A DNA stretch of 64,000 nt from Brevibacillus panacihumi W25 (GTDB lineage Bacteria > Bacillota > Bacilli > Brevibacillales > Brevibacillaceae), in NCBI RefSeq assembly GCF_000503775.1, contig NZ_KI629785.1, forward strand, positions 744,001-808,000, given 5' to 3'. Positions 25,776 to 45,614 of this stretch are shown piece after piece; position 1 is the stretch's first letter, and every line of letters starts with the position of its first letter. Position numbers and translations under genes: made by a program. The notes under the pieces are model-generated. The model had not been told where the DNA came from and made no database searches. It saw only the letters and a program-made list of their open reading frames with translations.

Positions 25776-25838
25776 GAACTAGTCACTATTTTAAAGCAAC
25801 CTTCCATTAGCTTGGAAAAAAACGATAAGGTGATACGA

Positions 25839-26072
25839 ATGAAAACAATCTTCCTCCTGTTATCTGTCTTTTTTGCAAGTCTTGCTTCTGTCCAGCCTGA
25901 ACATTCCAAGAGTGTCTTTATTTCTGAAGGTGAGAGTATGGCGCCTACCTTGAAAAATAATGATCGTTTTCTTGTTGACAAAACCTACTACGATTCTCAT
26001 CCTATCCAGCGTGGAGATGTCGTTGTTATTCAGTTAGCAAACAATCGACAGTTCGTGAAAAGGGTCATTGCG
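25839..26072 (+). pseudogene. Signal peptidase I, 5' fragment (split by IS21)
   Basis: The first 78 codons of a type I signal peptidase. An N-terminal hydrophobic anchor (TIFLLLSVFFASLASVQ) is followed by the catalytic-serine box SEGESMAPTLKNNDRFLVDK and the catalytic-lysine region up to FVKRVIA. ATG 25839 follows AAGGTGAT. At 26073 an IS21-family element begins. The frame continues perfectly at 28572 (LPGETIEYK) once the element and one copy of its duplication are removed. The read-through frame ends after three extra codons inside the element. The anchor is unusually short for a bacillal SipS-like protein. Confidence 0.92.
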
Positions 26073-26187
26073 TGTAACTGCTAAACTAAATTCAACAGTA
26101 TCCGCCAAATAGAAATGAACACTTTTTTCTTTCACTTGGTAACCCAGTTAAGCTATGATTACTTGTTCAACATAGCTTGGCTGGGGG

Positions 26188-27759
26188 ATGGGAAAGGTGG
26201 AAAAATTACTGTTGTATCTTCAGGTTCATCAATTAAAAGAGCAAGGATTTAAGGTGGCAGCCATCGCAAGGAAATTGGATCTGTCGAGGAACACGGTCTA
26301 TAAATATCTAGATATGACTTTTGAGGAGGCATCAGATTGGGTCAATTCCCTTGGTAACAGAAGCAAAAAGTTGAATCCCTACCGGGATAGGATTCTCAGT
26401 TGGTTACATGAACATCCAGATCTGTCTTCTTCTCAGGTCGAGGACTGGTTAAAGGAGAAATATCCTTCCATTAAGATTGGAGGAAGCACAGTTCGATCCT
26501 ATGTTAGTGAGCTAAGGGAAATATACCATATTCCGAAAATTGTACATATTCGTGATCACGAAGCAGTGGAGGAGTTGCCAATGGGCCAACAGGCTCAAGT
26601 GGATTGGGGAGAAGTCACGGTTAAAAATATGGAAAAAAAGGACGTGAGATTATACTTCATCACTTTTGTTCTCTCCCACTCCCGTTTCAAGTATGTAGAG
26701 TGGCAAAGCAGACCCTTTACCACAAGGGATGCAATCAGATGCCATGAAAACGCATTCGTATTTTTCGGAGGAATGCCAGAGGAATTGGTTTATGACCAAG
26801 ATCACCTGATCACCGTAAGTGAAAATGCAGGAGACATTATCCTGACGAGTGAATTTCAGTCTTATAAGCAAGAACGTGGATTTCGCCTTTATTTATGCCG
26901 CAAGGCAGATCCGCAAAGTAAGGGCAAGATAGAAAACGTAGTGAAATTCGTGAAAAGAAACTTTGCCAAACACAGGGTTTTCTCCAATATCGATGCATGG
27001 AACGAACGGTCTCTGGCCTGGCTATCACGGACAGGCAATTACAATGTGCACCATACAACAAAAAAGAGACCGGTTGAAGTGCACGCCCTCGAAAAGCAAC
27101 ACTTGAAGCCAGTCTCTCCCCTGCTCTCTTTCGAGAGCAACCGTGGATCCAGTATAACAAGAACTGTCCATAAGGACAATGTGATTAAATATAAATCCAA
27201 TCGGTACTCCCTTCCTTTAGGGACATACCGTCCAAGGGGAGAGAATCAAGTATTTATCGAGATTCATGAAGAGGAACTGATTGTCAGAGCAACTCCGCAA
27301 GGAGAAGTTCTTGCACGACATCGGCTTTGCCACGGAAAAGGAGAGCTTATAAAAAGTAGACAGCACTCACGTGATCGATCTAAAGGGATTCATGCTTATA
27401 AGGAGACCATTATCCGCCAATTTCACGATCAAGAAAAAGCAATGCTGTTTATTCATGAGATAAGCGTTCGGTATCCGAGGTATGTACGTGATCATTTGCA
27501 AATCGTTCAATATGCCATCACCCATTTCCAACCTGATATTGAGGAAGCCTTGGATGTATGTGTAAAAGACCATTTATGGAGTGCAAATGACCTCCGGGAT
27601 GTTGCACAGCACCTTTCCCGACTAAAAGATACCAAGCCCTCCTCAGAACCTCGTTTCGATCAAGCAATACCAAGCAACTTCCGCAACCTCTCCGCATTAC
27701 AAGCCACTTCACCAACGAGGGAAATGGATAAATATTTAAAAATACTAGGGGGCATTTGA
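26188..27759 (+). CDS. istA: IS21-family transposase IstA
   Basis: A 523-residue DDE transposase. An N-terminal helix-turn-helix (VAAIARKLDLSRNTVYKYLD) is followed by the rve integrase core. Catalytic acids can be placed in QAQVDWGEVTV, ELVYDQDHLI and SKGKIENVVKF. It works with the ATPase IstB, whose gene overlaps its last bases. Start ATG 26188 follows GGGGG at a workable distance. No stop or frameshift interrupts it. Confidence 0.95.
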   Translation: MGKVEKLLLYLQVHQLKEQGFKVAAIARKLDLSRNTVYKYLDMTFEEASDWVNSLGNRSKKLNPYRDRILSWLHEHPDLSSSQVEDWLKEKYPSIKIGGSTVRSYVSELREIYHIPKIVHIRDHEAVEELPMGQQAQVDWGEVTVKNMEKKDVRLYFITFVLSHSRFKYVEWQSRPFTTRDAIRCHENAFVFFGGMPEELVYDQDHLITVSENAGDIILTSEFQSYKQERGFRLYLCRKADPQSKGKIENVVKFVKRNFAKHRVFSNIDAWNERSLAWLSRTGNYNVHHTTKKRPVEVHALEKQHLKPVSPLLSFESNRGSSITRTVHKDNVIKYKSNRYSLPLGTYRPRGENQVFIEIHEEELIVRATPQGEVLARHRLCHGKGELIKSRQHSRDRSKGIHAYKETIIRQFHDQEKAMLFIHEISVRYPRYVRDHLQIVQYAITHFQPDIEEALDVCVKDHLWSANDLRDVAQHLSRLKDTKPSSEPRFDQAIPSNFRNLSALQATSPTREMDKYLKILGGI

Positions 27760-28529
27760 CGTTGAACAGCACCGTACAGACCATGCAAAATTACTTCCGC
27801 CATCTTCGGATGGCGGAGACAGCCAATGAACTGCCTGAATTCCTTCGTAAAGCTGAAAAATTCTCTTGGACCTATCAGGAATTTCTAGAAGAACTCTTAA
27901 CCTATGAATTGAAACGGAGAGAAGCAAAAAATGCGGAGAGGAGATTGAAATGGGCCAAGTTTCCCTATCAAAAGACCTTGGATGAATTTCAGATCGATGA
28001 GCAAAAGTCAATCAGTTCCCGCCAAATCAAACAGTTGAAGGAACTGAATTGGCTAGAACAACAGTACAATCTGATCCTTCTTGGTCCTCCAGGAGTGGGC
28101 AAAACCCACATTGCAATTGGACTTGGGTTAGAAGCGATACAAAAGGGTTTTCAAGTTACCTTTTCAACCATGGGAGAGTTGATCCATCTATTGAAAACCC
28201 AAGAGTACCTCACAAAATCACAAACGCAGCTTAAAAGAATAAACGAATCCGATTTGGTCATTATTGATGATCTCATGTATATGGCAATGGATCAAAGGGA
28301 GGCAAACCTATTTTTCCACCTCATAAACAACCTGTATGAACGAAGTTCAATCATATTAACATCCAACAAAGGACCCGAACAGTGGGGAGAATTAATAGGT
28401 GATCAAGGAATTACGACGGCTATATTAGATCGATTGCTTCACAGAGTGGAAGTGATCCAACTAAACGAAGACAGCTACAGAATCAAATACAGGAGCTCTA
28501 TTTTCGGAGAAAAAAGTGTTCAATCTTAA
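27756..28529 (+). CDS. istB: IS21-family helper ATPase IstB
   Basis: A 257-residue AAA+ ATPase with Walker A LGPPGVGKTHIAIG and Walker B LVIIDDLMYM, plus ILTSNKGPEQWGELIGDQGI as sensor region. It regulates the IstA transposase and target choice. Its TTG start overlaps the istA stop by four bases (TTGA), so translation is coupled; a second TTG at 27762 is an alternative. Confidence 0.95.
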   Translation: MTLNSTVQTMQNYFRHLRMAETANELPEFLRKAEKFSWTYQEFLEELLTYELKRREAKNAERRLKWAKFPYQKTLDEFQIDEQKSISSRQIKQLKELNWLEQQYNLILLGPPGVGKTHIAIGLGLEAIQKGFQVTFSTMGELIHLLKTQEYLTKSQTQLKRINESDLVIIDDLMYMAMDQREANLFFHLINNLYERSSIILTSNKGPEQWGELIGDQGITTAILDRLLHRVEVIQLNEDSYRIKYRSSIFGEKSVQS

Positions 28530-28571
28530 TGAGCAAAAAGTGTTCAAAACTACTTGACGGTTACAATTGCG

Positions 28572-28815
28572 TTGCCGGGAGAGACAATTGAATATAAAGA
28601 TGATGTTCTCTACATCAATAAGGAAGCGGTTGACGAACCTTACCTAATCACAGCAAAAAATGAAAGCCAAAAAGAAAATCTCTATCTGACTGAGGATTTC
28701 GGCCCTATAACCATCCCCGAAGAAACCATCTTCGTTTTAGGTGATAATCGTCAAAATAGTTTAGACAGCAGAATGATCGGTCCAATTCCTATCGATCAAA
28801 TAGTTGGCAAGATGA
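28572..28815 (+). pseudogene. Signal peptidase I, middle fragment (between IS21 and IS256)
   Basis: It continues the frame from 26072: LPGETIEYKDDVLYINKEAV, LTEDFGPITIPEETIFVLGD, and the conserved box GDNRQNSLDSRMIGPIP, then IDQIVGKM. At 28816 an IS256-family element begins, and its own bases extend the frame artificially to 28898. The true end lies beyond that element: base 28815 joins 30283 to read TNTLPAN and stop TAA 30303-30305. Rebuilt from 25839-26072, 28572-28815 and 30283-30305, the protein has 166 residues. A terminator follows at 30320. Confidence 0.9.
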
Positions 28816-30274
28816 GGGATTGTAAATTATTTTGTGTAAATGGGTTTTTAAGAAATAAAAAGTCACATCGAAGGCTTTACATGGAGGGGCGGGCATGATA
28901 GGCTCGTTTGCCATGCGATGCATGTTTTTACAGGGATCGCCCAATCGCAAGATCTCATGCCCGCAGAGGCTCCATGTCAAGCCGGCTCAACCGATGGATC
29001 AGGCGGACAGTTCCGCTTGCAATCTGTCTCCAAAATGGATAGCAAGCTGCGATATACATTCTTTCCAACTCCTGACTGGCATAGTCCACTTCTTCGAAGC
29101 CTCAATCGTTGCAAGATAGATGATCTTCCGTAGGGCGTCGTCGGTTGGATAGGCAGTTTTCGTTTTGGTTACTTTGCGGAGTTGACGGTGGTATCCCTCA
29201 ATAATATTTGTGGTATAGATCATCTTACGAATTTCAGCAGGATAGTTAAAATAGGCGGTCAACTCAATCCAGTTATTTTCCCAGGAGCGAATGATAATGG
29301 GATATTTTTTCTCCCATCTCTCTTTAAACGTAGCGAAAGCCACCTCGGCTTCTTCTAATGTAAGAGCTTGATAGACTTTCTTTAAGTCTGCCAAGACTAG
29401 CTTCTCTTCTTTGAAGGGAACATATTTCATTGAATTACGTATCTGGTGGATGACGCATAGTTGAATCTGGGTTCTCGGGAACGCAGCATTAATTGCCTCT
29501 GAAAATCCTGAGAGTCCGTCCTTACACGCGATCAGGATATCTTCTACCCCGCGACTTTTCAACTCCGTACACACATTTAGCCAAAAGCTAGCACTCTCGT
29601 GCTCGCCAATCCAGATACCCAAAATGTCCTTATGTCCTGATACTGTAATGCCTAGAACGCTGTATGCTGCTTTATTGATGATCCGATTATCCTGGCGAAC
29701 TTTAAAATGAATAGCGTCAAGGAATACAATGGGATAAACGCGGTCAAGAGGCCTACATTGCCATTCCGCCACCATTGGCATGATCTTATCCGTTACTTTA
29801 CTGACCATCGCCGCTGACACTTCAATCCCATATAAATCCTTCATGTGTTCCTCGATGTCTCGCGTAGACATTCCTTTCGCATAGAGAGCAATGATTTGCT
29901 CTTCTAAACCATTTGCGGTAGTCTCGTGTTTTTTCACAATATGAGGTTCAAATTCGCCGTTGCGATCGCGAGGCACACGAAGTTCTGTGTTACCAAACTT
30001 CGTTTTCACTGTCTTTTTGCTGTAGCCATTTCGACTATTTCCTGTATGGTCACCGTCGGAACTATGCTTGTTGTAGCCTAAGTGATCATCCATTTCGGCT
30101 TCAAACAACTGCTGGATCGTGTCACGAAACAGGTCCTTCAGCATCACATGGACGTCCTCGATGGTGCGGCAATCCTTTGCTAATTCTTTGATCGTAAGAT
30201 CTCTTTTGTCTTGCATAAATGATCATCTCCTTAATGGAAAGTTTAACCATTTACACAAAACTTTTTACGCTCTC
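28816..30274 (-). mobile_element. IS256-family insertion sequence, complete
   Basis: A 1,459-base element bounded by 28-base imperfect inverted repeats, alike in 22 positions. The shared core TTTTGTGTAAATGG is at 28831-28844 and inverted at 30247-30260. It is flanked by the 8-base direct repeat CAAGATGA (28808-28815 and 30275-30282), the duplication length expected for this family. It carries one intact transposase gene. It inserted into the 3' end of the signal peptidase I gene. Confidence 0.94.
28999..30216 (-). CDS. IS256-family (Mutator-type) transposase
   Basis: A 405-residue transposase with the standard IS256 opening (AEMDDHLGYNKHSSDGDHTG, NSRNGYSKKTVKTKFGNTEL). The DDE acids fall in VFLDAIHFKVR, IACKDGLSGF and FKERWEKKYP, and IHQIRNSMKYV is the conserved C/H-rich region. 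ATG 30216 follows AAGGAGATGATC. The frame is intact. Confidence 0.96.
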   Translation of the reverse strand: MQDKRDLTIKELAKDCRTIEDVHVMLKDLFRDTIQQLFEAEMDDHLGYNKHSSDGDHTGNSRNGYSKKTVKTKFGNTELRVPRDRNGEFEPHIVKKHETTANGLEEQIIALYAKGMSTRDIEEHMKDLYGIEVSAAMVSKVTDKIMPMVAEWQCRPLDRVYPIVFLDAIHFKVRQDNRIINKAAYSVLGITVSGHKDILGIWIGEHESASFWLNVCTELKSRGVEDILIACKDGLSGFSEAINAAFPRTQIQLCVIHQIRNSMKYVPFKEEKLVLADLKKVYQALTLEEAEVAFATFKERWEKKYPIIIRSWENNWIELTAYFNYPAEIRKMIYTTNIIEGYHRQLRKVTKTKTAYPTDDALRKIIYLATIEASKKWTMPVRSWKECISQLAIHFGDRLQAELSA

Positions 30275-30743: not shown

Positions 30744-30943
30744 TTTTTATGCCTCCCCATATGTCTTGTAGCTTCTTCGCTATCTATCATTAATGTACAG
30801 TTTCTCTTTTGTTAAAAACAGTGAAACCTTACTACTCCCAGTTGCGTAGACTTCTTAGGTACCTCTTAAGCCCCAAAATTGGATTTGAGTCTCCCCCCCT
30901 TATCTTGTTAAGCTGGTATCAGAAGAACAGAGGGGGATTTTTT

Positions 30944-31276
30944 ATGCAACGAAAACGCTATCCAATCGAGTTTAAACAACAGCTGGTTCAAGAAGCCCAA
31001 GATGCAGGAAATGCAAGCCAAGTTGCCAGACGGCATGGGATCGATGCGAAAATGTTGTATCGTTGGATACGTGATTCGAAACATGCGGATTGGAAAAACA
31101 CTCCTGCCGAAGCCAAAGCGGTAACGAGTTATACTCCGAGCCCGGGAGAATTTCGTGAATTGGAAACCGAGAATGATCAACTGAAGAAACTACTTGGAGA
31201 AAAGGATTTGGAAATCGCGATCCTCCGTGATCTTGTAAAAAAGGTGAACCCAGCTTATCGGACAAAGTGGAAATAG
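30944..31276 (+). CDS. IS3-family transposase OrfA
   Basis: A 110-residue protein: helix-turn-helix (GNASQVARRHGIDAKMLYRW) followed by a leucine-zipper-like coiled coil (ELETENDQLKKLLGEKDLEI). ATG 30944 follows GAGGGGGA; the longer frame from 30809 has no site. Near its end an A6G run at 31237-31243 permits a -1 slip into the OrfB frame, giving the fused OrfAB transposase. Confidence 0.92.
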   Translation: MQRKRYPIEFKQQLVQEAQDAGNASQVARRHGIDAKMLYRWIRDSKHADWKNTPAEAKAVTSYTPSPGEFRELETENDQLKKLLGEKDLEIAILRDLVKKVNPAYRTKWK

Positions 31277-32196
31277 CCGACAAGTGGATACAGCTGGGGT
31301 ATACAGCCAAATTGGTGCTACGTATTGTCGGCATCCTTGAAGCAACCTACTACTATCGGAAAAATAAGGCCTCTCAAAAGCCACGGGTTTACCATGGAGG
31401 GCGGCCGATCCCTGGTTATTCATTGTCAACGGACGGACAACCTGTCAGTGACGAGCAAATTAAAGAATGGATATCGGAACTGATTGCGGATGAAGAATCT
31501 GCTTATGGCTATCGAAAGCTTACGGTCTGCCTGCGGCGAGATCACCAGTTGATCATCAACAAGAAAAAAGTGTACCGCCTGCTGAAAGAAGAAGGACTTT
31601 TACAACCACAACGAAAAAAGAATAGTCATCATCCCCGGAGGCTTGCCAATAACCGAGAGATCACCGCTCCGAATCAATTGTGGGAGATGGACGTAAAATA
31701 CGGATTTATCGCCGGGGAACATCGTTTCTTTTTCCTGATGAGTCTCATTGACGTCTATGATCGAGCGATCGTAGACTATCATTTTGGTTTGTCATGCGAA
31801 GGAAAACATGCATCTCAGATTCTTCAAAGAGCTTTGTGGAAACGGCAACAATTCGACAACGAGAATCCCCCTGTTATCCGTACGGATAACGGTCCGCAGT
31901 TTATTAGTCATGTATTCGAGGAGGCCTGTCAAAGCTTCCGAACCGTTCACGAACGAATTCCTCCAAAGACGCCAAACAAAAACGCTCACATTGAGTCCTT
32001 TCACAGCGTTTTGGAGAAAGAATGTTTGCAGCGGAATGAATTTCAGAGCTATCAAGAAGCCTATGAAACCGTGACAAACTATCTGCTCTTTTACAATCAG
32101 CGCCGGATTCACGGAAGCTTGTACGATTTATCACCTGTAGAATTTGGTAAAGCTTTTACCCTGCAACGCATTACACCATTTGTTGTGAAAGTGTAG
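31267..32196 (+). CDS. IS3-family transposase OrfB (DDE integrase)
   Basis: A 309-residue rve-domain protein. Catalytic acids are in LWEMDVKYGF, VIRTDNGPQF and KNAHIESFHSVLEKE. Its frame is open back to the A6G slip site in OrfA (KGEPSLSDKVEIADKW), so the natural product is a fusion made by frameshifting. The frame is intact, so the element may be active. The outer ends are not obvious. Confidence 0.93.
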   Translation: MEIADKWIQLGYTAKLVLRIVGILEATYYYRKNKASQKPRVYHGGRPIPGYSLSTDGQPVSDEQIKEWISELIADEESAYGYRKLTVCLRRDHQLIINKKKVYRLLKEEGLLQPQRKKNSHHPRRLANNREITAPNQLWEMDVKYGFIAGEHRFFFLMSLIDVYDRAIVDYHFGLSCEGKHASQILQRALWKRQQFDNENPPVIRTDNGPQFISHVFEEACQSFRTVHERIPPKTPNKNAHIESFHSVLEKECLQRNEFQSYQEAYETVTNYLLFYNQRRIHGSLYDLSPVEFGKAFTLQRITPFVVKV

Positions 32197-32220
32197 TGTG
32201 GCAAAGGATTGCAGAACGAT

Positions 32221-32333
32221 CCCTACTTCAACCTAGCTGACAAGCAGAAAGGAAACCGTCTGGGGTCAAGTGATCTCCTTGACGCTAGACGGTTTCCTTT
32301 CTAGACTCCGACTCCAAGGTGGTTGAAGTAGGG
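32221..32333. repeat. Nested palindromic element (MITE-like hairpin)
   Basis: Outer arms CCCTACTTCAACC (32221-32233) and GGTTGAAGTAGGG (32321-32333) enclose inner arms AAAGGAAACCGTC (32248-32260) and GACGGTTTCCTTT (32288-32300), with TCAAG/CTTGA at the tip. All arm pairs are perfect. The 113-base unit can fold into one long hairpin. It has no coding capacity and could be a miniature inverted-repeat element or the end structure of the neighbouring IS3 element. Confidence 0.65.
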
Positions 32334-32796
32334 AAGAAGGAAGAATCATATGAAAATGCGAGAATAAGGGAGAAAGACTCTAATTTTGAGGGGTTAAACC
32401 GCTCTTTTGTTATGTTTTTGTCGATTAACATTTTCCACAGTGGGTTAAATGTAAACACTATTGTATACCTCCCTATTATTAAGCAAACCTTGTCGGTGTA
32501 AATGTTTGATAGTCATTCCTGCTAGTCTACGATGTTATCTGCTCTGCCTTGGGGTGGGCTGATAATACGGCCCTGAACTTAGGAGAAATAGGTCAGCAGA
32601 AACGACATATTACCTAGCAAGAATCCCGCTGATCATGAAAGTTTCAGCGGGATTCTCTGGGTATCAGCGTTAAGTAAACTTGTGCTTGCTCATCATATGG
32701 GAACCTAGCATCTTTAATGCCTCAATCATAGCAGCGCCCCCATTTCTGCGTTGCCCAGTACTTCGTCAGCCTTTTGTAACCTCTCATAAAGCAGTT
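32334..32796. other. Intergenic stretch with a hairpin, no intact gene
   Basis: No convincing gene is seen in these 460 bases. A plus-strand frame to 32501 ends in a hydrophobic stretch (NRSFVMFLSINIFHSGLNVN) that might be a membrane-protein fragment. A 13-base perfect inverted repeat, AGAATCCCGCTGA at 32620-32632 and TCAGCGGGATTCT at 32644-32656, lies near the right end without a T-run. Confidence 0.4.
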
Positions 32797-33280
32797 GCAA
32801 AAGTTCCTCTAAAGCACTTACAACCAGAAACTTAGTTGCTTTGTCCGGCATATCTCAGTCTTATATATCTCATGTCGAGAGTGGCAGAAAAGGCATACCC
32901 TCCCCAGACATACTGAAAAAACTCTCTACAGCACTCGAAGTACCCTATATTGAAATGATGGATATGGCAGGGTTACTACCTGAAGAAATTAAAGAAAGTG
33001 AGGAATACAAAAGGGTTACCCATTTAAAGAAACTCTCAGAAGATTATATTGAAGCAACCGTACGACTGGACTAGATCAGCAGCTAGAAGAAAGCAATAAG
33101 GCAGTAGAAGAATCGCAATTTGAAATACAATCACTTGAAGCGTATTACAAGAACCCAGCACTTGATCTACTTGATTTCCTTAACTTCCCATTCATTACTT
33201 ACAAAGATTAACAGCTTACTGCGGAAGACCGACAGCGAATTATGGACATGCTCCGATTAATGTTTCCTGATCGCAAATAG
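32797..33280 (+). pseudogene. XRE-family phage/ICE-type repressor, decayed
   Basis: The helix-turn-helix reads ALTTRNLVALSGISQSYISH, then VESGRKGIPSPDILKKLSTA and EVPYIEMMDMAGLL, a Cro/CI-type domain. The N-terminal methionine region is lost behind a stop near 32788. The first frame ends at 33074, and the C-terminal text continues in another frame (QLEESNKAVEESQFEIQSLE, then FLNFPFITYKD, stop, QLTAEDRQRIMDMLRLMFPD). One frameshift and one nonsense change are thus visible. Repressors of this type usually sit next to the integrase of an integrated element, as here. Confidence 0.75.
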
Positions 33281-33316: not shown

Positions 33317-34498
33317 ATGGCGAGTGTTCAAAAACGTGGCGAAAATTCGTGGCTTCTTGTCGTGGAAGCGGGCTGCGATGCTAACGGCAAACGAATAAAA
33401 AAGACTAAGACTGTAAAGGGCATGGGCAAACGGGAAGCAGAAAAGGAATTGGCCAAGTTCGTTACAGAAGTCGAAGTAGGACAGTATATCGCCCCAGAAA
33501 AAATGACATTCTCGGCTTTCGTGGACGAATGGCTAGAGAAATATGCCAGAAATGAACTAAGCCCCAAGACCCTGGAGAATTACATCATTCAAATTAACAA
33601 TAGGCTGATTCCTGAGTTTGGACATTTGCGACTTGATCAAATCAAACCGCTGCACATTGTTACTTTTCTAAAGAACTTACAGCAAGTCGGAGGGAGGAAA
33701 GACGGGAAAGAAGGAAAGCTATCATCTGGAATGATCGAATACATCCATAGGGTATTAAAAAACGTATTCAACAGGGCTGTAGATTGGAAGGTTATCAAAA
33801 CAAGCCCAATGGAGGGGATAAAGAAACCGAAAGTAGAACAGGCTGAAATGTCTGTATTCGATGATGAAGAAGTACAGCGACTGTTTCTAGCATTGGAAAA
33901 AGAAAAAATAATGTGGCGTGTCATGATTACTTTGGCCCTGACAACGGGCTTACGCCGTGGCGAACTTCTAGGCCTTGAGTGGAAGCATATTGACCTAGAA
34001 ACTGGAACAATCGACGTGAAGCAATCATTATCTTTTGTGAAAGAAATCGGATATCAGATTAAAGAACCAAAAACAAAAAATTCAGTACGGAAGGTTGCAA
34101 TGCCGCCTTCGGTAATCCACGAAGTAAAGGCGTTAAAAATACAATCAGCAAAAGAACGTATGCAATCAGGTGAATTATGGCAAGGCGGGGAACACTTTTT
34201 TGTATTTTCCTCATGGAACGGTAAACCGCTATATCCATCCAGTGTAAAAACGTGGTGGAGTAGATTCATTAAGCGAAATTCCCTGCGGTACATCCGTTTT
34301 CACGATCTTCGGCATACATCAGCCACAGTTCTGATTAACAAAGGGGTTCACGCAAAAATCATTTCGGAACGTCTTGGCCATGCCAATATCCTAACTACAA
34401 TGAATATTTAAGGGCACGCCCTACGGTCAGCTGACCAGGAGGCGGCAAAGCATTTTGATTCCCTTTTTGACACTTCTTCAAAGAATATGAAGGCTTAA
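33317..34498 (+). pseudogene. Tyrosine recombinase (phage/ICE integrase), catalytic Tyr lost
   Basis: A phage-type integrase with an N-terminal arm-binding domain (to about 60), a SAM-like core-binding domain (about 65-165) and the catalytic domain. The catalytic residues seen are Arg in LTTGLRRGELLGLEW and the His-x-x-Arg in FHDLRHTSATVLI, then LGHANILTTMNI. At the next position, where family members have Tyr-Gly-His, the codon is TAA (34409-34411). The frame then runs on as GHALRSADQEAAKHFDSLFD to TAA 34496. One base change would restore the catalytic tyrosine. GGGAGG precedes the ATG, so a truncated inactive protein may be made. Confidence 0.9.
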
Positions 34499-34508: not shown

Positions 34509-34544
34509 GGCAGCATAGAACCCCCCGTTCTAGGCTGCCTTTTT
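34509..34544. terminator. Terminator after the integrase
   Basis: GGCAGCATAGAAC pairs with GTTCTAGGCTGCC around a C-rich loop, and a T-run follows on the plus strand. It ends the integrase unit and abuts the convergent hypothetical gene. Confidence 0.85.
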
Positions 34545-35157
34545 AGTTTGTATCTCGAAGTTGATTTGTTAATTCTCTTCTTGCTTGTCCTCGCACAATT
34601 CGCTTTACCTTATCAACAGTCTTATAAAACTTTTCCTTACTTCTTTTTTTAAAACCGCATCCAACACAGTACCAAACATATTTTCCCCACAATGCAGTTC
34701 CCCAGAAATCGCTCTTTTCATACAGTTCAGTATCACATTTTGGACAGAGCGGTGGCGATTGGACGTCAATTTTAGATATGCTACTCTCGGCTGTTTCCTC
34801 TGAAATCCCTCTGCTAAAAAGATTCTTGGCATACCTGACACGCCAATTAACTCCAAAATGCTCTTCACTACCTACGTCTGTCCATGCCCTTGCTGGCCTC
34901 ACTACAGCAAATAAGGTAGTACTAAAATTTTCCTCTTCAAGAGACCTAGCCCGCTTGACGATAATCCAGGAAATTCCTATCATAGCCAGTAATAAACCAG
35001 AAACCCACCAAGCCCACACTGGGATTTCCCATTCTCCGTTTTGTAAATATATAATTAAGCCGGCTACAGGAGGTAGTGCTAATATTACCGGAATAAAAAT
35101 CTTTGCCAATAACCCTGTAGCTATGCTCGTCAATAATTTAATGGCCCATTCTTTCAT
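34543..35157 (-). CDS. Membrane protein with zinc-ribbon, unknown function
   Basis: A 204-residue protein with two N-terminal membrane helices (IFIPVILALPPVAGLIIYLQ and WAWWVSGLLLAMIGISWIIV) and a soluble C-terminal half with a CPKC and CVGC pair, a probable zinc ribbon, followed by a basic tail. I chose ATG 35157 (MKEWAIKLL) behind TTGGAG; the longer TTG start at 35190 is weaker. It lies between the dead integrase and the tRNA genes, so it may be cargo of the lost integrative element. No family recognised. Confidence 0.6.
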   Translation of the reverse strand: MKEWAIKLLTSIATGLLAKIFIPVILALPPVAGLIIYLQNGEWEIPVWAWWVSGLLLAMIGISWIIVKRARSLEEENFSTTLFAVVRPARAWTDVGSEEHFGVNWRVRYAKNLFSRGISEETAESSISKIDVQSPPLCPKCDTELYEKSDFWGTALWGKYVWYCVGCGFKKRSKEKFYKTVDKVKRIVRGQARRELTNQLRDTN

Positions 35158-35250
35158 TTGTTTCTCCAATCTAATTATTTTCGTCAACAATCCGTCAACA
35201 ACACCCTAATAAGCATCCTGTACCAACAGCTTTTGAATGTCTGTTTCATC

Positions 35251-35280
35251 AAAAAACCCCTTGATTATCAAGGGGTTTTT
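35251..35280. terminator. Bidirectional terminator after the tRNA genes
   Basis: AAAACCCCTTGA and TCAAGGGGTTTTT form a perfect stem around TTA, with A/T-runs on both sides. It ends the minus-strand tRNA transcript. Confidence 0.9.
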
Positions 35281-35291
35281 ATACGCTGTTA

Positions 35292-35367
35292 TGGTGATCC
35301 GGACTGGGTTCGAACCAGCGACCCCCACCCTGTCAAGATGGTGCTCTCCCAACTGAGCTACCGGATC
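35292..35367 (-). tRNA. tRNA-Val (anticodon GAC)
   Basis: A 76-base cloverleaf on the minus strand. The acceptor arms GATCCGG and CCGGATC, the D-arm GCTCAGTTGGGAGAGC, the anticodon loop TTGACAG (anticodon GAC), the T-arm GGTTCGAACCC and an encoded CCA are all present. Its 3' end faces the dead integrase, the usual arrangement when an element integrates at a tRNA 3' end. Confidence 0.93.
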
Positions 35368-35411
35368 ATGGGATATGTATGTGACCTTTAACCATCTATG
35401 TACTCGTTAAA

Positions 35412-35488
35412 TGGTGGGCCCTGTAGGACTCGAACCTACGACCAATCGGTTATGAGCCGACCGCTCTGACCAACTGAGCTAAGGGCCC
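35412..35488 (-). tRNA. tRNA with CAU anticodon (Ile2 or elongator Met)
   Basis: A 77-base cloverleaf on the minus strand with acceptor arms GGGCCCT and AGGGCCC, the D-arm GCTCAGTTGGTCAGAGC, the anticodon loop CTCATAA, the T-arm GTAGGTTCGAGTCCTAC and an encoded CCA. From memory the body resembles the bacillal tRNA-Ile2 whose C34 is changed to lysidine by TilS, rather than elongator tRNA-Met. Sequence alone does not settle this. It precedes tRNA-Val in one transcript. Confidence 0.9.
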
Positions 35489-35518
35489 GAATCGCACCGG
35501 ACGTCGATCACATGTATT

Positions 35519-35547
35519 ACTATACATGATCCAAAAAACGATTTCAA
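35519..35547 (-). promoter_or_regulatory. SigA-type promoter of the tRNA pair
   Basis: On the minus strand TTGAAA (35547-35542), a 17-base spacer and TATAGT (35524-35519) form a near-consensus promoter 31 bases before the first tRNA. The region 35489-35785 holds nothing else I can support. Confidence 0.8.
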
Positions 35548-35785
35548 GAGGAAAAAACGATTTTTTGTAAATTTTTTCACTCCCACCAAAAGAACCGCTT
35601 TCCACCTCTCATTTTTCCTAGAAACCTGCACGCAAGTGCAGCAAAAAAGGAGCCATCTTGCAAGTCTCCCCATCCCGAACCACCACATAAGCGATGCCCC
35701 GAATAAAGCCCCTTGCAAAATAACTCCCTCTTATCTTCTTTCCCTACCTAACTTAGCACGCAAGTGCTGTCGCTACCTACTCACC

Positions 35786-36376
35786 CTACCCAGCCTGCTC
35801 CCCCCCACCCTTCTTCCCTTCCACCCGAATCTCCGCCAACGCTTCGGCCTCAGCCCTAGCCACCGCAGCCTCCTGCTCATCCCTCATCCGATGCGCCATC
35901 CGGCTGGACGCATTGGCCGCCACACTCGCCACCAGATCATCTAAAAAGGTATGCACCTGACCATCCTCGGCCAGCGTCGTATCCAGCTTATTAATAACCC
36001 CGATCTTATGCTTATCCAAATGACCGAAGGTCGTCACCGCAATACTTCCATAGGCAAACACCGACCCGATCGCGAGCGTCTCGTCACACCCAAACAATCC
36101 TTCATCCTGCGCGATAATCGACTGAAGCGGCTCAGACAGCATTCCCTTCTCCGCCAACGTATCCAACTCGATACCGACGAGAATGGCATGCTGCATCTCC
36201 CGCTTTTCCAATACAGCCTTCACGCTCTCGATGCACGGTTCCAGCGTCAGCTCAGGGTGATACGGCGCTTGCATCTCATATACAATCTCAGCTATATCCT
36301 TTATGGTCACTCCCCTCTCCTCCAGACGAGCGAGGGCAGCGTTTCGAACTTCTATACTGTGTACTTGTTTTTTCAT
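35786..36376 (-). CDS. yutG: Phosphatidylglycerophosphatase A-like protein (YutG)
   Basis: A 196-residue PgpA/YutG family protein. Family text includes GVTIKDIAEIVYEMQAPYHP, ILVGIELDTLAEKGMLSEPL, DEGLFGCDETLAIGSVFAYG and the membrane-near TTFGHLDKHKIGVINKLD. The C-terminal 35 residues are an Ala/Glu-rich tail (EEQEAAVARAEAEALAEIRV-like) ending in a glycine-rich segment, not part of the usual domain. The original activity is dephosphorylation of phosphatidylglycerophosphate; whether bacillal YutG does this in vivo is less clear. A promoter lies at 36427-36455. Confidence 0.88.
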   Translation of the reverse strand: MKKQVHSIEVRNAALARLEERGVTIKDIAEIVYEMQAPYHPELTLEPCIESVKAVLEKREMQHAILVGIELDTLAEKGMLSEPLQSIIAQDEGLFGCDETLAIGSVFAYGSIAVTTFGHLDKHKIGVINKLDTTLAEDGQVHTFLDDLVASVAANASSRMAHRMRDEQEAAVARAEAEALAEIRVEGKKGGGEQAG

Positions 36377-36426
36377 GACGGGACAACCCCTTCCAAAACC
36401 ATACTTGTGAAGTCGTTCTTTACCAT

Positions 36427-36455
36427 ATTATCATACGATAGTAAAATTGCGACAA
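36427..36455 (-). promoter_or_regulatory. SigA-type promoter of yutG
   Basis: On the minus strand TTGTCG (36455-36450), a 17-base spacer and GATAAT (36432-36427) lie about 50 bases upstream of the yutG start. Confidence 0.65.
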
Positions 36456-36581
36456 ATTTGAACAAATCATCTCCGCACGTCCCCAACTCCCAGGTGACTC
36501 CATACAAAAGGTATGGAAACGCTGATTGCTCCTGTATAATAAGCACCAAAAGCAGAAACATCCCGAAGGGAGGACATCATC

Positions 36582-37286
36582 TTGCCGCTTGAGGAAATTG
36601 TCTTGGACAGCCGGCATCTTGGAACGCCGGAGACCCTGATCGCCTATACACCGCAGCGCTATTCGCCGCTCTACTCCTATCCCGTCCTCTACGTCCAGGA
36701 TGGGGCCGATTACCTTTCTTTGGGCAAAATGGCCACCATGCTGGACGAACTAATTTTGCAAAAAGAACTGCCCGATCTCATCGCGGTCTTTTTGCCAGTA
36801 ACAAAAGAAAAACGAACTTCCCGCTACCATCCCGACGGTGCCGAACATATTGCCTACCGCCGCTTTTTGGCTGAAGAAGTCGTCCGATACATCGACAGCC
36901 GCTACTCGACGCATCCGCTTGGGAATGGCAGGACATTGGTCGGGGCTTCCCTCGGGGGTGTCGTTTCCCTATTTACCGCCCTGGCGTATCCCCATACGTT
37001 TGGGCAGGTAGCCAGCCAATCCATTGCCATGGACCCAAATTTGAACCAACGCGTGTCCCAAGCCGACCTGACCGTTCCTCTCTCCTTGTATTTGCAGATC
37101 GGCACCGACGAGACCGCAGTAGAAAGCTCGAGAGGACCACTCGACCTGGTCGCTTCCAATGAGGAGCTTCGCGCTATTTTGCAAACAAAAATGGTCACCC
37201 TGGTCTATGAGACCTTTGAGGGCGACCACACGTGGGGCCACTGGCAAGCCCATCTTCCCCGTATGCTGCAGAAGCTTTTAGGGTAA
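36582..37286 (+). CDS. yjcH: Alpha/beta-hydrolase esterase (YjcH-like)
   Basis: A 234-residue esterase of the Fes/esterase-D group. The nucleophile elbow is GASLGG (Ser near residue 125), and the likely catalytic His is in GDHTWGHW close to the C-terminus. It starts PLEEIVLDSRHLGTPETLIA and includes YPVLYVQDGADYLSLGK. TTG 36582 is preceded by GGGAGGA. The order yjcH, yjcG, yjcF is that of B. subtilis, which supports the naming. A TATAAT box lies at 36535-36540. No signal peptide, so it acts in the cytoplasm; the substrate is unknown. Confidence 0.87.
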   Translation: MPLEEIVLDSRHLGTPETLIAYTPQRYSPLYSYPVLYVQDGADYLSLGKMATMLDELILQKELPDLIAVFLPVTKEKRTSRYHPDGAEHIAYRRFLAEEVVRYIDSRYSTHPLGNGRTLVGASLGGVVSLFTALAYPHTFGQVASQSIAMDPNLNQRVSQADLTVPLSLYLQIGTDETAVESSRGPLDLVASNEELRAILQTKMVTLVYETFEGDHTWGHWQAHLPRMLQKLLG

Positions 37287-37288
37287 AC

Positions 37289-37447
37289 TTACCGTGTCTG
37301 CTCTTCTTGCGGACTTTTCTCTTTGACGGGTGTGACCAGAACCTCTTCGAACTCTACCTTGCGAATAATGGACAAGATGGTGAAGGTAAGTACGGACAAC
37401 AGGAGCAGGACGAGAAAAATGAAAGTGATCATCATGGCTACATGCAA
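37289..37447 (-). CDS. Small single-pass membrane protein
   Basis: A 52-residue frame: an N-terminal membrane helix (MITFIFLVLLLLSVLTFTIL) and a short charged tail (RKVEFEEVLVTPVKEKSPQE). A very strong AAGGAGGTGG site (37454-37463) lies about 8 bases before TTG 37447; an in-frame ATG pair at 37435 and 37432 is another possible start. It is convergent with yjcH, ending 3 bases after it. The plus-strand ORF over the same bases has no ribosome site. No family recognised. Confidence 0.6.
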   Translation of the reverse strand: MHVAMMITFIFLVLLLLSVLTFTILSIIRKVEFEEVLVTPVKEKSPQEEQTR

Positions 37448-37594
37448 AACGAACGCCACCTCCTTACCTTCTCAGTCTCTCCTGCCGACCGCATTCTATA
37501 CGGACCCAAGCGTAACATTACACAAATGACGAATTTTCTGTTAAAATACAGGCATGCTAGAAGCTCATGAGAGAGCAAAGGAGGAGTGGTTCTG

Positions 37595-38101
37595 ATGAAA
37601 TACAGTATTGTCGTTTTCCCATCCAGCAAAGTTCAGGAAGTAGCCAACTCATACCGGAAACGTTACGACCCTGCGTATTCATTGATACCGCCATACATCC
37701 GGCTGAAAGAAGCCTTCGAATTGGACGAATCCAAGCTGCCCTTGCTGGTTGAACACCTGGAACAGGTAGCCGCTTCTACCCATCCCTTTACCGCTCAATT
37801 CCACCGTGTCTCTACCTTCCACCCGACGAATAATGTCATCTTTCTAGCGGTGCAAAACAAGGAGCCTTTCACCGAGCTGCACCAAAAGATCGTGAAAAAT
37901 GTCAATGAAAAAGAAACCTATGCATTCGTTCCGCATCTGACCATCGGGCGCGATCTGTCCGACGATGAGCTGCGTGACGTAACAGGGCAATTGAGCATGG
38001 TCAAGTTTGATCTCACCGCAGAAGTGGATCGCTTCCACCTGGTCTACCAGCTCGAAGATGGTATTTGGAGTGTCTACCAGACCTTCCTTCTGAAAAAATA
38101 A
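37595..38101 (+). CDS. yjcG: 2H phosphoesterase-like protein YjcG
   Basis: A 168-residue member of the 2'-5' RNA ligase/2H phosphoesterase superfamily. The two His motifs are in AQFHRVSTFHPT and VPHLTIGRD. The start MKYSIVVFPSSKVQEVANSY is typical of YjcG. ATG 37595 follows AAAGGAGGAG. It lies between yjcH and yjcF as in B. subtilis. It is a presumed cytoplasmic phosphoesterase of unknown substrate. Confidence 0.93.
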   Translation: MKYSIVVFPSSKVQEVANSYRKRYDPAYSLIPPYIRLKEAFELDESKLPLLVEHLEQVAASTHPFTAQFHRVSTFHPTNNVIFLAVQNKEPFTELHQKIVKNVNEKETYAFVPHLTIGRDLSDDELRDVTGQLSMVKFDLTAEVDRFHLVYQLEDGIWSVYQTFLLKK

Positions 38102-38177
38102 GTGAATCCCGCAACTGCCCCTCCCCGCAGTCCACGCAGGGAGGGGCTTTTGATCGCATAAAGGACGTGTTATTTTG

Positions 38178-38624
38178 ATGAAATCCCTCTACCAGATCCA
38201 AACCGTACAATCTGAAAAAGAAATGGCGGACGCCATGTCTGTCCGCAAAATCGTCTTCATCGAGGAACAGGAAGTGCCGGAAGACCTTGAGATCGACGAG
38301 CATGACACACCAGAGAGCGGTACGATTCATTTTGTCGCCTATCGGGGGGAGGAGCCCGTGGGAGCGAGCCGCCTTCGTCCATATGCTCCTGGAGTCGGAA
38401 AAGTAGAGCGTGTCGCCGTCAGCAAAACAGAGCGCGGGACAGGCTTGGGCCGACAAATCATGTTGGCTATGGAAGAATCCGCAAAAAAACATGGCTTTCA
38501 CACCCTCAAGCTCAATGCGCAAACGCATGCCCAACGCTTTTATGAAAAGCTTGGCTATGAGCCCCACGGAGATGTGTTTGACGAAGCCGGTATTGAACAC
38601 ATTGCAATGGTAAAATCATTGTAG
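38178..38624 (+). CDS. yjcF: GNAT family acetyltransferase YjcF
   Basis: A 148-residue acetyltransferase. The acetyl-CoA pyrophosphate loop is VERVAVSKTERGTGLGRQIM, and the later ALNAQTHAQRFYEKLGY-type segment (KLNAQTHAQRFYEKLGYEPH) is characteristic of the YjcF/ElaA group. ATG 38178 directly follows a TTG; AGGACG is the likely ribosome site. It is followed by a strong bidirectional terminator. The substrate is unknown. Confidence 0.92.
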   Translation: MKSLYQIQTVQSEKEMADAMSVRKIVFIEEQEVPEDLEIDEHDTPESGTIHFVAYRGEEPVGASRLRPYAPGVGKVERVAVSKTERGTGLGRQIMLAMEESAKKHGFHTLKLNAQTHAQRFYEKLGYEPHGDVFDEAGIEHIAMVKSL

Positions 38625-38641
38625 GCCATATTCTTGCATAC

Positions 38642-38683
38642 AAAACCCCCGTCGCTGCCGTGATCCCTGGCGACGGGGGTTTT
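38642..38683. terminator. Bidirectional terminator
   Basis: AAAACCCCCGTCGC at 38642-38655 pairs with GCGACGGGGGTTTT at 38670-38683. It serves yjcF on the plus strand and the PHP gene on the minus strand. Confidence 0.92.
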
Positions 38684-38704
38684 CCTTTCCCACCAAAAAC
38701 AACG

Positions 38705-39550
38705 TTATTTGCGGCGCCGATTTGCAATCTCCCGCATGCTATCCACGACATCTGCATGTACCGTATGCGATCCCAGCATGGCGTGAAAAGGCTCTTCTCC
38801 GCGCCAACCGTGAAAATCCGACCCTCCGGTTACGAGCAGATCAAACTCCTCCGCCCATTTTCGGTACACCTCACGTTGATTCTGCGAATTGTCCGGATGG
38901 AATACCTCAATCCCGTCCAGCCCGAATTCGATCAACTCCTTGACCAGCTCGTCATCGTCATAGAGTCCGGGGTGAGCCAGCACCGCCACGCCTCCCGCTT
39001 CCCGAATCAGCGTGATCGCCTCCTGGGGGGTGATGCGCGGCGGATTCACATACGCAGCCCCTCCTTTGCCCAGATACTTGTCGAAGGCTTCCTCGATCGA
39101 ATTGACGACACCCAGCTCCATGAGCTCTTCTGCGATATGCGGACGACCGATGTTCTTATCCGTTCCCTGTTTGCGCTTGTACACATCCTCCAGCTTGATC
39201 GCGATACCCAGCTCTTGAAGCTTGTTGATCAGTAGCTTGTTCCGCTCGTGCCGCGTCTCGCGCAAGCCGACCAGCTTTTCCTGGAACGAAGCATCCTCAT
39301 ACGGTACAAAAAAGCCAAGCACATGAATATCCTGCCCGCGAGCCACAGAGCTGATCTCCACTCCCGGTATCACTTCGATTCCAAGCACAGCTCCGGCTTC
39401 CTTCGCCTCTGCGATGCCGGCCACAGTATCGTGATCCGTGATCGCGAGCGCAGCCAGCCCCGCTTCCTTGGCGATCCGCACATTTTCCTTCGGCTCACAA
39501 GTGCCGTCTGACGCTGTCGTATGGGTATGCAGATCCGCGTTTTGCTGCAT
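38705..39550 (-). CDS. PHP-domain phosphoesterase (YciV/RNase AM-like)
   Basis: A 281-residue protein with the PHP metal-binding motifs DLHTHTTASDGT, ALAITDHDTVAG, IPGVEIS, VAVLAHPGLY and VTGGSDFHG. Relatives (YciV/TrpH) act on short 5'-phosphorylated oligonucleotides or on 3',5'-bisphosphonucleotides. ATG 39550 (MQQNADLHTH) is preceded by AAGGAG; the longer frame from 39583 has a Lys/Arg-rich head with no site. Confidence 0.9.
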   Translation of the reverse strand: MQQNADLHTHTTASDGTCEPKENVRIAKEAGLAALAITDHDTVAGIAEAKEAGAVLGIEVIPGVEISSVARGQDIHVLGFFVPYEDASFQEKLVGLRETRHERNKLLINKLQELGIAIKLEDVYKRKQGTDKNIGRPHIAEELMELGVVNSIEEAFDKYLGKGGAAYVNPPRITPQEAITLIREAGGVAVLAHPGLYDDDELVKELIEFGLDGIEVFHPDNSQNQREVYRKWAEEFDLLVTGGSDFHGWRGEEPFHAMLGSHTVHADVVDSMREIANRRRK

Positions 39551-39655
39551 GATTTCGTCCACTCCTTCTTTTCTTTTTCTCAAGTCTGAATCATGAAGCC
39601 CCTACATAGGATGGTAGCAAACCCGTTTGATAAGGGAAAGTCAAGGAGGATGACC

Positions 39656-40018
39656 ATGCGGTTAAAAAACAAAACCCTGACCGGTGTCGTGCAGCCACTC
39701 TCCTATGTCGACAAGATGTTGAGGCAGCAGGGCTTTCAACGATCAGGGGGCGACAGTATGCCCACGTATGATGTCGTCATTTACGACTCCGCAAGCAGCA
39801 GCACCTATTTTCTCCGCATTCCCACGAATTTCTCCAGTCAAGACACAGGCAAAGGAGAGCAGACTGTCAAATTGGGTCATCCCTATCTGGAAGCAGAGTT
39901 CATGATGAGCATCGAGACCGAGGAATTTTTCTTTATTCCAAAATCCGTCCGAGAAGCTGCTGAACACAAGCTGGCTGAGATCGCCGATTATCTGTCGTCC
40001 CCGTCTGCTTCCGTCTGA
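39656..40018 (+). CDS. YugN-like family protein
   Basis: A 120-residue protein resembling the YugN-like family of Bacillales: STYFLRIPTNFSSQD followed by VKLGHPYLEAEFMM matches the LRIP...VRLGTP pattern of that family. No function is known. ATG 39656 is preceded by AAGGAGGATGACC. Its end overlaps the convergent MBL gene by 31 bases. Confidence 0.72.
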   Translation: MRLKNKTLTGVVQPLSYVDKMLRQQGFQRSGGDSMPTYDVVIYDSASSSTYFLRIPTNFSSQDTGKGEQTVKLGHPYLEAEFMMSIETEEFFFIPKSVREAAEHKLAEIADYLSSPSASV

Positions 40019-40935
40019 GGCAAGTCTTTTTTGCCCCATAACCACCTGTTTTCTGCAATTCGGTACGTTACCCTTTCTTCACGGAACAACCCGACCAAAT
40101 AACCCATTAAGGCAGTTCGCAACAACACATAGTTGGAAGCGTTTTCGATGCTGATCTCCAGATGCTCGCACAAAGCAGCCAAGGCATCCTCAAGCGTGCG
40201 TTCCTTTGTCAAGATCCCTTCGAGAACGCTGCAGATTCGCTCGTGCCACTCCATGTTTTTTCTCAGCACATCCTGAATCTCTTGGGAGGTGGTGGTATAA
40301 GGTCCGTGACCCGGCAAGTACCCGTCATATCGGGTCTGCGTCAGCTTGACCAGGCTGAGAATCGTCTCATGCACGTCTACGAGAAACGGAAGCTTATGTT
40401 TTTCCAATACGGATTCACCCAAATAACTGTCGGCGGCAAAGCAAATCTCGTCGCACACCACTCCGACCTGCTGCCAGCTATGCCCCGGCAGAGAAAGGAT
40501 GGTCATACCGACACCGTCAATTTCTACTTCACCCTCTATGGGAAGGAGGTGATCCACCCGCGAAGCAGGAGCCAGAAGGAATTTGTTGCGCAGCTCATCG
40601 AGTGGTTCAGCCCCCATGCTCAAATAAATCGGTTCGAGTATGGGGTAACGAATGACCGCCTCTTCCAAAGGCGGAGCGTACACTTTTGCCTCAGGCCAAC
40701 AACTGAGCAGGTAGGCATTGCCGCCGAAATGATCGGCATGGGCATGTGTTTGCAGGATCGCGTACAAGGGCTGGGCGATAGTCTCCAGCCCTTTTTTGAT
40801 TTTCTTGGCCGTCTGGGTATCCAGACCGGAATCGATCAGGATCGCCCCGCTATTGCCAAGAACCAGACCAATATTGACGTGACCGGGAAAATATCCGACT
40901 CGATCCCGTACCATGACAGGAGTATGGGTTGCCAT
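39988..40935 (-). CDS. MBL-fold metallo-hydrolase
   Basis: A 315-residue metallo-beta-lactamase-fold protein. The metal motif is LQTHAHADHFGG, with later ligands in LSLPGHSWQQVG and AADSYLG, and GYLPGHGPYTT. A helical C-terminal domain of about 90 residues follows the hydrolase domain. It probably hydrolyses a thioester or lactone in the cytoplasm; the substrate is not predictable. ATG 40935 is preceded by GAAAGAAGGACG. Confidence 0.9.
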   Translation of the reverse strand: MATHTPVMVRDRVGYFPGHVNIGLVLGNSGAILIDSGLDTQTAKKIKKGLETIAQPLYAILQTHAHADHFGGNAYLLSCWPEAKVYAPPLEEAVIRYPILEPIYLSMGAEPLDELRNKFLLAPASRVDHLLPIEGEVEIDGVGMTILSLPGHSWQQVGVVCDEICFAADSYLGESVLEKHKLPFLVDVHETILSLVKLTQTRYDGYLPGHGPYTTTSQEIQDVLRKNMEWHERICSVLEGILTKERTLEDALAALCEHLEISIENASNYVLLRTALMGYLVGLFREERVTYRIAENRWLWGKKDLPQTEADGDDR

Positions 40936-40966
40936 TCTGTCGTCCTTCTTTCCTCGCTTTTCCTAT

Positions 40967-41695
40967 TTAGTTTCTCCACTTTTCGCCCCATCCCTTTTCC
41001 GCTCTCGAAGTTGACTTTCTCGGATTCGGGTCGAGCGCATCGCGTTCTGTCGGGGCAATCGTGCAGAGAGTTCGCTTGGCCCGAACGGAATGAAGCGGAC
41101 CGATGATCGTATAGGGCTTTATAGGTTGGCGAATCCTGCTGAATCGATGCGTCGTCGCTGCGACGGCCAAGATCGTGAAAAAGGAAAAGACCATCCGCTC
41201 TACCCCGACGGCCTGCAGCGAACTGCCTACAATGATGCCATCGATCCCGAGAATGACGAATGCGACCGGAAGCTTGTACCTTCGGGCAATAAATTGCGCC
41301 AAAAGATCAGTCCCTCCCGTATTCGTCTCGTAAGCGAGCATGAGGCCAACGCCTGTGCCGATCAAGCTTCCTCCGATCACCGCAGAGCTGGCGGTCGACC
41401 AGACGTTAAAGGGTCTGAGAAACGAAAAAACATCAATAAACCAGGACGAGATCATCATGCCAAGAAAACTGTGATAAAACAGCCGGCGGTCAAAAGCAAA
41501 TACGAGGATAAAGACCGGGATGCTTGCCCCGATGATCACCAAACCTGCGGGAAGCTGCAGATAGTACGTCGCCAACAAGCCAATCCCGATCATTCCGCCT
41601 TCCAAAAGCCTGTGGGGGACGAGAAAGAGATTGACTCCGAGTGCGACCAGCAGACTGCCAGCCAAGATCGCTGTTGTTTTAGGCAGCCAATACAT
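40967..41695 (-). CDS. YitT-family membrane protein, no DUF2179 domain
   Basis: A 242-residue protein with five or six membrane helices of the YitT type (LEGGMIGIGLLATYYLQLPA, then LMLAYETNTGGTDLLAQFIA). Full-length YitT proteins end in a DUF2179 domain. Here the last 60 residues are a basic, low-complexity tail (SRIRQPIKPYTIIGPLHSVR and onwards) unlike it. This may be a short family form or the result of a 3' change. The function of the family is unsettled. Confidence 0.85.
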   Translation of the reverse strand: MYWLPKTTAILAGSLLVALGVNLFLVPHRLLEGGMIGIGLLATYYLQLPAGLVIIGASIPVFILVFAFDRRLFYHSFLGMMISSWFIDVFSFLRPFNVWSTASSAVIGGSLIGTGVGLMLAYETNTGGTDLLAQFIARRYKLPVAFVILGIDGIIVGSSLQAVGVERMVFSFFTILAVAATTHRFSRIRQPIKPYTIIGPLHSVRAKRTLCTIAPTERDALDPNPRKSTSRAEKGWGEKWRN

Positions 41696-41858
41696 ACCCT
41701 CCCCTCCCCAGAATGTCCTCCTCTATGTGTATGATTCGATAGAAATGGGTAGTCCTCTGGATGTTTCTCTAATGGCATCCTTATCCCGCTAGAACCACCG
41801 TTGTCGAATGTTTTGTTCATGAGAACGTATATATGAAAGTACATTCCTGCTCACGGAG

Positions 41859-43022
41859 GTGAGATCTCCACGCTTCCCAAGACGGAAGCTGGAGCTGATC
41901 TTGGAGAGTCCGATCGGGGAATTTGCCCTGTATCTGCTGCTTGTCGTCTTCCTTGTGCTTCTTAACGCTTTTTTCGTCGCGGCAGAATACGCATTGGTCA
42001 AAGTCCGCCAAACACGTCTCACACAACTCGTAAAAGAAGGAAAACACAAGCGAGCCCAAAACGCGCAAAAAGTGACACGGCAATTGGACGCTTACTTGTC
42101 CGTTTGCCAGCTTGGCATTACCATCGCTTCGCTTGGACTGGGGTGGATGGGTGAACCTGTCATCTCCTCCTTCATCCGGCCCCTGCTTGCCTGGTTGCAG
42201 GTGCCGCTTCCGCTTGCAGAACCCGTCTCCTTGGTACTTGCCTTTGCCTTGATTGCGTATATGCATATCGTCTTCGGAGAGCTCGCCCCGAAAACCCTCG
42301 CGATTCAAAATTCGGAACACACTTCGATGTCGGTGGCCGCGCCATTGATTTGGTCATATAGGCTTGTTTCGCCTGTCATCCGCCTCCTGAACGGTGCCGC
42401 CTCCCTCCTTATGCGCCTGGCCGGAATTGGACCTGTGACCAAGAATGAGTCGGCTCACACGGAAGATGAAATTCGCCAGCTCATCAGCCAAAGCCACCAG
42501 AGCGGTCACATCGACCAGACTGAGTTGGCTCTCGTGGATAACATTTTTTCCTTCTCAGAGCGTCTTGCCCGGGAAATCATGGTCCCGCGCCCCGATATGA
42601 TCTGCCTCTACGACCAAGATCCCTATGAAAAAAATTTGCAGGTTATCCGCACCTTTCGCCACTCCCGTTTTCCCGTGGCACGCGGAGACAAGGATCGCTT
42701 GATTGGCTTCGTCCACGCATCTGACTTTTACCTGCAGGCGATGTCAACAGATCACCGCGACCTCCTGACCATTCTCCGTCCGTTGCTGACAGTACCCGTG
42801 ACGATGGAAATCAGCCATATTCTGCGTCTGATGCAAAAAAAACGCAGCCAAATGGCGATAGTGATTGATGAGAACGGCGGGGCCTGCGGCCTGTTGACAA
42901 TGGAAGACATCCTCGAAGAGCTCGTGGGGGAGATTCAAGACGAATTCGACCCGAACGAGCGATCCGAAACAGGTATCTATTCGCCTAATACAGGAGCACC
43001 TCGCCAGCGCAGTCTTGTCTGA
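41859..43022 (+). CDS. CNNM/HlyC-CorC-type membrane protein with CBS pair
   Basis: A 387-residue protein: CNNM (DUF21) membrane domain with three or four helices (ALYLLLVVFLVLLNAFFVAA, LGITIASLGLGWMG, AFALIAYMHIVFGELAPKTL), then a CBS pair (IMVPRPDMICLY, HSRFPVARGDKDRLIGFVHA, VIDENGGACGLLTMEDILEE). The C-terminal CorC_HlyC domain found in most relatives (about 430-440 residues) is missing; the frame ends at RSLV soon after DEFDPNE. The GTG start at 41859 overlaps the GGAGG site, so the true start is uncertain. It probably affects Mg2+ or other ion efflux (inference). Confidence 0.88.
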   Translation: MRSPRFPRRKLELILESPIGEFALYLLLVVFLVLLNAFFVAAEYALVKVRQTRLTQLVKEGKHKRAQNAQKVTRQLDAYLSVCQLGITIASLGLGWMGEPVISSFIRPLLAWLQVPLPLAEPVSLVLAFALIAYMHIVFGELAPKTLAIQNSEHTSMSVAAPLIWSYRLVSPVIRLLNGAASLLMRLAGIGPVTKNESAHTEDEIRQLISQSHQSGHIDQTELALVDNIFSFSERLAREIMVPRPDMICLYDQDPYEKNLQVIRTFRHSRFPVARGDKDRLIGFVHASDFYLQAMSTDHRDLLTILRPLLTVPVTMEISHILRLMQKKRSQMAIVIDENGGACGLLTMEDILEELVGEIQDEFDPNERSETGIYSPNTGAPRQRSLV

Positions 43023-43081
43023 CGAGGTAGACACCGCCGCCAGATGGCTTTACAATCAGTTGATGGAGTGATCGCATCTGG

Positions 43082-43110
43082 CAAGTGCCTCCAGCATCTG
43101 GAGGCACTTG
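43082..43110. other. Perfect hairpin between CNNM and helicase genes
   Basis: CAAGTGCCTCCAG at 43082-43094 and CTGGAGGCACTTG at 43098-43110 form a 13-base perfect stem with a 3-base loop. No T-run follows, so it is either a weak terminator of the CNNM transcript or an mRNA structure ahead of the helicase gene. Confidence 0.6.
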
Positions 43111-43146
43111 ATCATGTACATAATAAGGAGGCCCAGCGGATCTGTC

Positions 43147-45604: not shown

Positions 45605-45614
45605 CATTCATATC

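Follow-up and report, generated by a model that had tools for sequence, protein, structure and literature searches.

A prophage remnant at tRNA-Val(GAC) of Brevibacillus panacihumi W25 carries an integrase pseudogene with a stop at its catalytic tyrosine codon

Results

Gene content of the locus

We analyzed 64,000 nucleotides of the B. panacihumi W25 genome (contig NZ_KI629785.1, positions 744,001 to 808,000; from here on, this whole stretch will be referred to as the window). As shown in Table 1, disrupted genes for an integrase and a repressor lie between a group of insertion sequences and tRNA-Val(GAC). The integrase gene lies at one end of the remnant and faces the tRNA gene, the 3' end of which is the attachment site. 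The presence of a phage-type integrase together with a repressor at a tRNA attachment site identifies the locus as a prophage remnant; it is not a complete prophage, as the attachment site is present in a single copy and the ORFs at 26-35 kb include no recognized structural genes. What can still be recognized of the element amounts to only some 2.5-3 kb, beside three insertion sequences that lie to the left of the repressor within about 7 kb.

Table 1. Features of the prophage remnant and its surroundings (positions within the window)
Feature	Position	Strand	Basis or remark
IS21-family element, two genes	26091..28547	+	ORF, Pfam, inverted repeats
IS256/Mutator-family transposase gene	28999..30216	-	ORF and Pfam
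IS3-family insertion sequence with two ORFs and an rve domain	30809..32196	+	Adjoins the remnant on the left; Pfam
XRE/HTH_3 repressor pseudogene	32795..33280	+	Pfam; compared with the L019 homologue
Integrase pseudogene, 364-aa open part	33317..34411	+	ORF call, Pfam, PHROG, alignment with relatives
TAA at the catalytic Tyr codon	34409..34411	+	Codon 365; sequence, alignments, motif survey
Integrase C-terminal remainder, 28 residues and stop	34412..34498	+	In frame, conserved with relatives
215-aa ORF, possibly cargo, lying between the integrase gene and the attachment site	34543..35190	-	ORF call
Proximal attachment site, tRNA-Val 3' end and flank	35286..35310	+	Shared with other elements at this site; one copy in window and genome
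Intact tRNA-Val(GAC), target of integration	35292..35367	-	tRNA annotation

The repressor gene differs from its L019 homologue by three lesions, namely a missing 5' end, a frameshift near 33055-33075, and an in-frame TAA at 33209-33211. The stop in the integrase gene is one lesion among several in the remnant. The 215-aa ORF matched neither Pfam nor PHROG profiles, and no relative of it was found among viral contigs.

The IS21-family element has imperfect inverted repeats (26091-26130 and 28508-28547), and a signal-peptidase-I-like gene (25812-26084 and 28554-28898) appears to be split by it. Directly after the IS3-family transposase, we noted a strong nested inverted repeat at 32220-32334, with outer arms of 14 nt that match perfectly and inner arms of 25 nt that are 92% complementary. 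At 246-684 on the minus strand, an ORF resembles, by eye, the N-terminus of a group II intron reverse transcriptase and is apparently truncated.

The integrase frame is interrupted at the codon for the nucleophilic tyrosine

The 364-aa open part of the integrase comprises the N-terminus, the SAM-like core-binding domain, and the catalytic domain without its tyrosine. In Pfam searches, the catalytic domain PF00589 matched residues 181-362 with an E value of 8.4e-29, which places the protein in this family; the SAM-like domain PF14659 also matched, and the PHROG match was phrog_1 integrase. The preliminary description had held that the frame runs on past a TAA that stands where the family has its nucleophilic tyrosine and that a single base change separates the gene from that of an active enzyme, and these observations stood up to closer analysis. 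This TAA is the sole interruption of the frame from 33317 to 34498, and the 28 residues that follow it (GHALRSADQEAAKHF) agree with those of the closest relatives before a second in-frame TAA at 34496-34498 closes the tail.

To place the catalytic tyrosine, intact integrases from other Brevibacillus genomes, from an IMG/VR contig, and from phage Abouo were aligned with the interrupted frame; nine full or partial sequences were aligned residue by residue, and further C-termini were compared separately. All intact relatives aligned in this way have tyrosine at the position of the stop, in the context TTMN[IV]YGHA or an equivalent, and the N-F/Y-x-H motif of solved-structure Tn1549-type Int sequences aligns at the same position. 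The alignment is unambiguous, and the catalytic tyrosine falls on the TAA codon and not elsewhere. The tyrosine codons of the relatives that were checked are TAT or TAC, from either of which TAA is parted by a single substitution. The tyrosines of the open part are at positions 57, 76, 89, 142, 246, 306, and 325, and this full list contains no alternative tyrosine near the C-terminus. The remaining core catalytic residues are kept in the alignment, namely R (in TGLRRGEL), K (in the PKTK region), H-x-x-R (in HDLRH), and H (in LGH). As read from its sequence, with TAA in place of the codon for the nucleophile of tyrosine recombinases, the gene is a pseudogene of the PF00589 family rather than an active member.

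The nearest relatives are phage or prophage integrases, with 80-81% identity to that of the IMG/VR contig (L070) and 57.5% to those of the Brevibacillus phages Abouo and Davies. The integrases of Abouo and Davies and of Paenibacillus larvae phages (phrog_1; 57.5% and 47% identity, respectively) have the same domain layout, and that of Abouo has the conserved TMNIYGH motif; unlike in the window, however, the integrase genes of all these phages are uninterrupted.

tRNA-Val(GAC) is used by several integrase lineages

Elements of other genomes meet the chromosome at the same tRNA-Val 3' end, and ACCCAGTCCGGATCACCATAACAG is common to the window and to genomes G016, G008, and G001. Integrases with 77% identity adjoin this tRNA-Val in G016 and G008, as does one with 63% identity in G079, which belongs to another bacterial family; the choice of target is therefore conserved in the clade. 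Quite different integrases are present at the same site in G001, G009, and G010, and integrases with 37-39% identity adjoin tRNA-Val in G004, G011, G015, and G021. The tRNA-Val(GAC) 3' end (35286-35367; L052-L055, L057, and L099) is thus a hotspot for several distinct integrase lineages, and this hotspot extends through Brevibacillus into at least one further family.

A second copy of the attachment site was found neither in the window, allowing up to three mismatches, nor in the 11-contig genome, allowing up to two, where it could lie in a gap or have diverged. From these searches, the distal attachment site appears to be gone or too diverged for recognition, and, as the genome yielded no second copy, the element could apparently not excise cleanly even if its integrase were active.

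Comparison with a sister genome and recent loss of the integrase

The sister genome G016 is ~94% identical to the window over 35244-47301 and through much of the sequence as far as 24502, and most of the intervening 10.7 kb (24.5-35.2 kb) is unmatched in G016, save for the diverged integrase and an IS end. The chromosomal genes at 36-47 kb are intact and keep their lengths relative to G016, and the lesions therefore concentrate in the remnant. At the same tRNA-Val, G016 has a related integrase, with 77% identity over the part that matched. Within L052 12080-17193 of G016, the prophage-like genes (integrase, ImmA-like, and XRE) take up only ~3 kb, little else is phage-like, and apparent chromosomal genes follow. 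Unlike that of the window, the G016 integrase is intact, and its nucleotide identity is 73.6% compared with ~94% for the chromosome, so the G016 element is probably a separate integration; it may also be a remnant, albeit one with an intact integrase. The chromosomal genes flanking the G016 element, sought as a guide to the far boundary, had no close orthologue in the W25 genome, and G008 and G017 were too rearranged for the deletion to be dated by left-flank synteny.

Compared with L070, the 80%-identical relative, the integrase has a dN of 0.15, and synonymous sites are saturated. The window branch carries 51 nonsynonymous and 75 synonymous changes and the L070 branch 45 and 84, respectively, with no marked nonsynonymous excess on the window branch. 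These substitution patterns show a frame that was under purifying selection until recently; given synonymous saturation against a dN of 0.15 and no marked nonsynonymous excess, loss of the integrase is recent. Most of this history of constraint is simply that of an active phage gene.

The position of the stop is compatible with chance

Along the integrase gene, 176 (165 + 9 + 2) single-base routes lead to a stop, two of them at the tyrosine codon and 174 elsewhere, so that one random nonsense mutation would fall on the tyrosine codon in ~1.1% of cases. When 250 genomes of the same class were surveyed for the motif, 59 places were found, of which 56 have a tyrosine codon and one, the window site, has TAA; the remaining two have TAG, also contain an in-frame stop further upstream, and appear to be chance matches. 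By these motif matches, the window integrase is the only credible integrase in the survey with a stop at the tyrosine codon, and a literature search for a prophage integrase stopped at its catalytic tyrosine returned no matching paper. Any stop upstream would be just as fatal to the integrase, so that no particular reason need be sought for the exact position, and its coincidence with the tyrosine implies no additional mechanism.

Discussion

The locus is very probably what is left of a phage that inserted at tRNA-Val and then lost its distal attachment site and the bulk of its body, with the residual genes now in decay and the integrase disabled by a nonsense mutation at its tyrosine codon. 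The phage, a temperate one with an integrase of the Brevibacillus/Paenibacillus clade, would have inserted at the tRNA-Val(GAC) 3' end, and most of the prophage body, together with the distal attachment site, would then have been lost, most likely by insertion-sequence-associated deletion. The leftover genes would have eroded one by one, and the integrase would have gained its nonsense mutation on the catalytic tyrosine codon by happenstance; the truncated protein, if made, would at most bind DNA and would not cleave it. The assignment to a phage and not to some other kind of integrative element, the mechanism of the deletion, and the order of events are what we infer from these features.

The preliminary description had further proposed that the stop froze the integrated element. 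This was not borne out as the cause: with no other copy of the attachment site, a repressor broken three times, and ~2.5-3 kb left, clean excision of the remnant appears to be precluded regardless of the stop, and freezing by the stop is therefore not established. Immobilized integrated elements whose integrase carries a nonsense mutation have been described before: pST4 of Sulfolobus is cited as such a case (PMC8371274). Like the remnant in the window, pST4 is immobilized in the host chromosome; unlike it, pST4 is archaeal, and the passage of PMC8371274 that concerns it does not place its stop at the catalytic tyrosine.

We consider it improbable that immobilization was itself selected, with loss of catalysis favored because it fixed useful cargo or yielded a catalytically dead protein that still binds attachment-site DNA and serves as a blocker or regulator. 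The single lesion in an otherwise conserved integrase and the cargo-like ORF between the integrase and the attachment site would fit such domestication, but the distal attachment site is missing anyway, the adjoining repressor is decaying too, the allele is known from one strain, and the truncation removes the last 28 residues along with the tyrosine. That a dead, still DNA-binding integrase is kept at tRNA-Val as a regulator or site blocker, excluding competing phages from the hotspot, seems to us very improbable indeed.

A sequencing or assembly error at one base of an otherwise intact integrase is likewise an unlikely source of the stop. It would explain a single substitution in an otherwise clean frame, but the nearby repressor carries independent lesions, and substitutions are rarer than indels among assembly errors. 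Further, the neighboring chromosomal genes have no lesions relative to G016, and their integrity argues against general sequence error. Readthrough of the stop as an amino acid, giving a full-length and possibly functional integrase, has a negligible probability: the downstream residues are conserved with relatives, though this is equally expected of a recent stop, whereas termination is efficient where G follows TAA and no suppressor tRNA was seen within the 64-kb window.

Overall, we conclude that the locus is an ordinary immobilized prophage relic without sign of a new function. It leaves the understanding of integrases unchanged, but is a clean example of a chromosome capturing and eroding a prophage. 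In addition, it identifies tRNA-Val(GAC) as a site of repeated integration, both within Brevibacillus and outside it.
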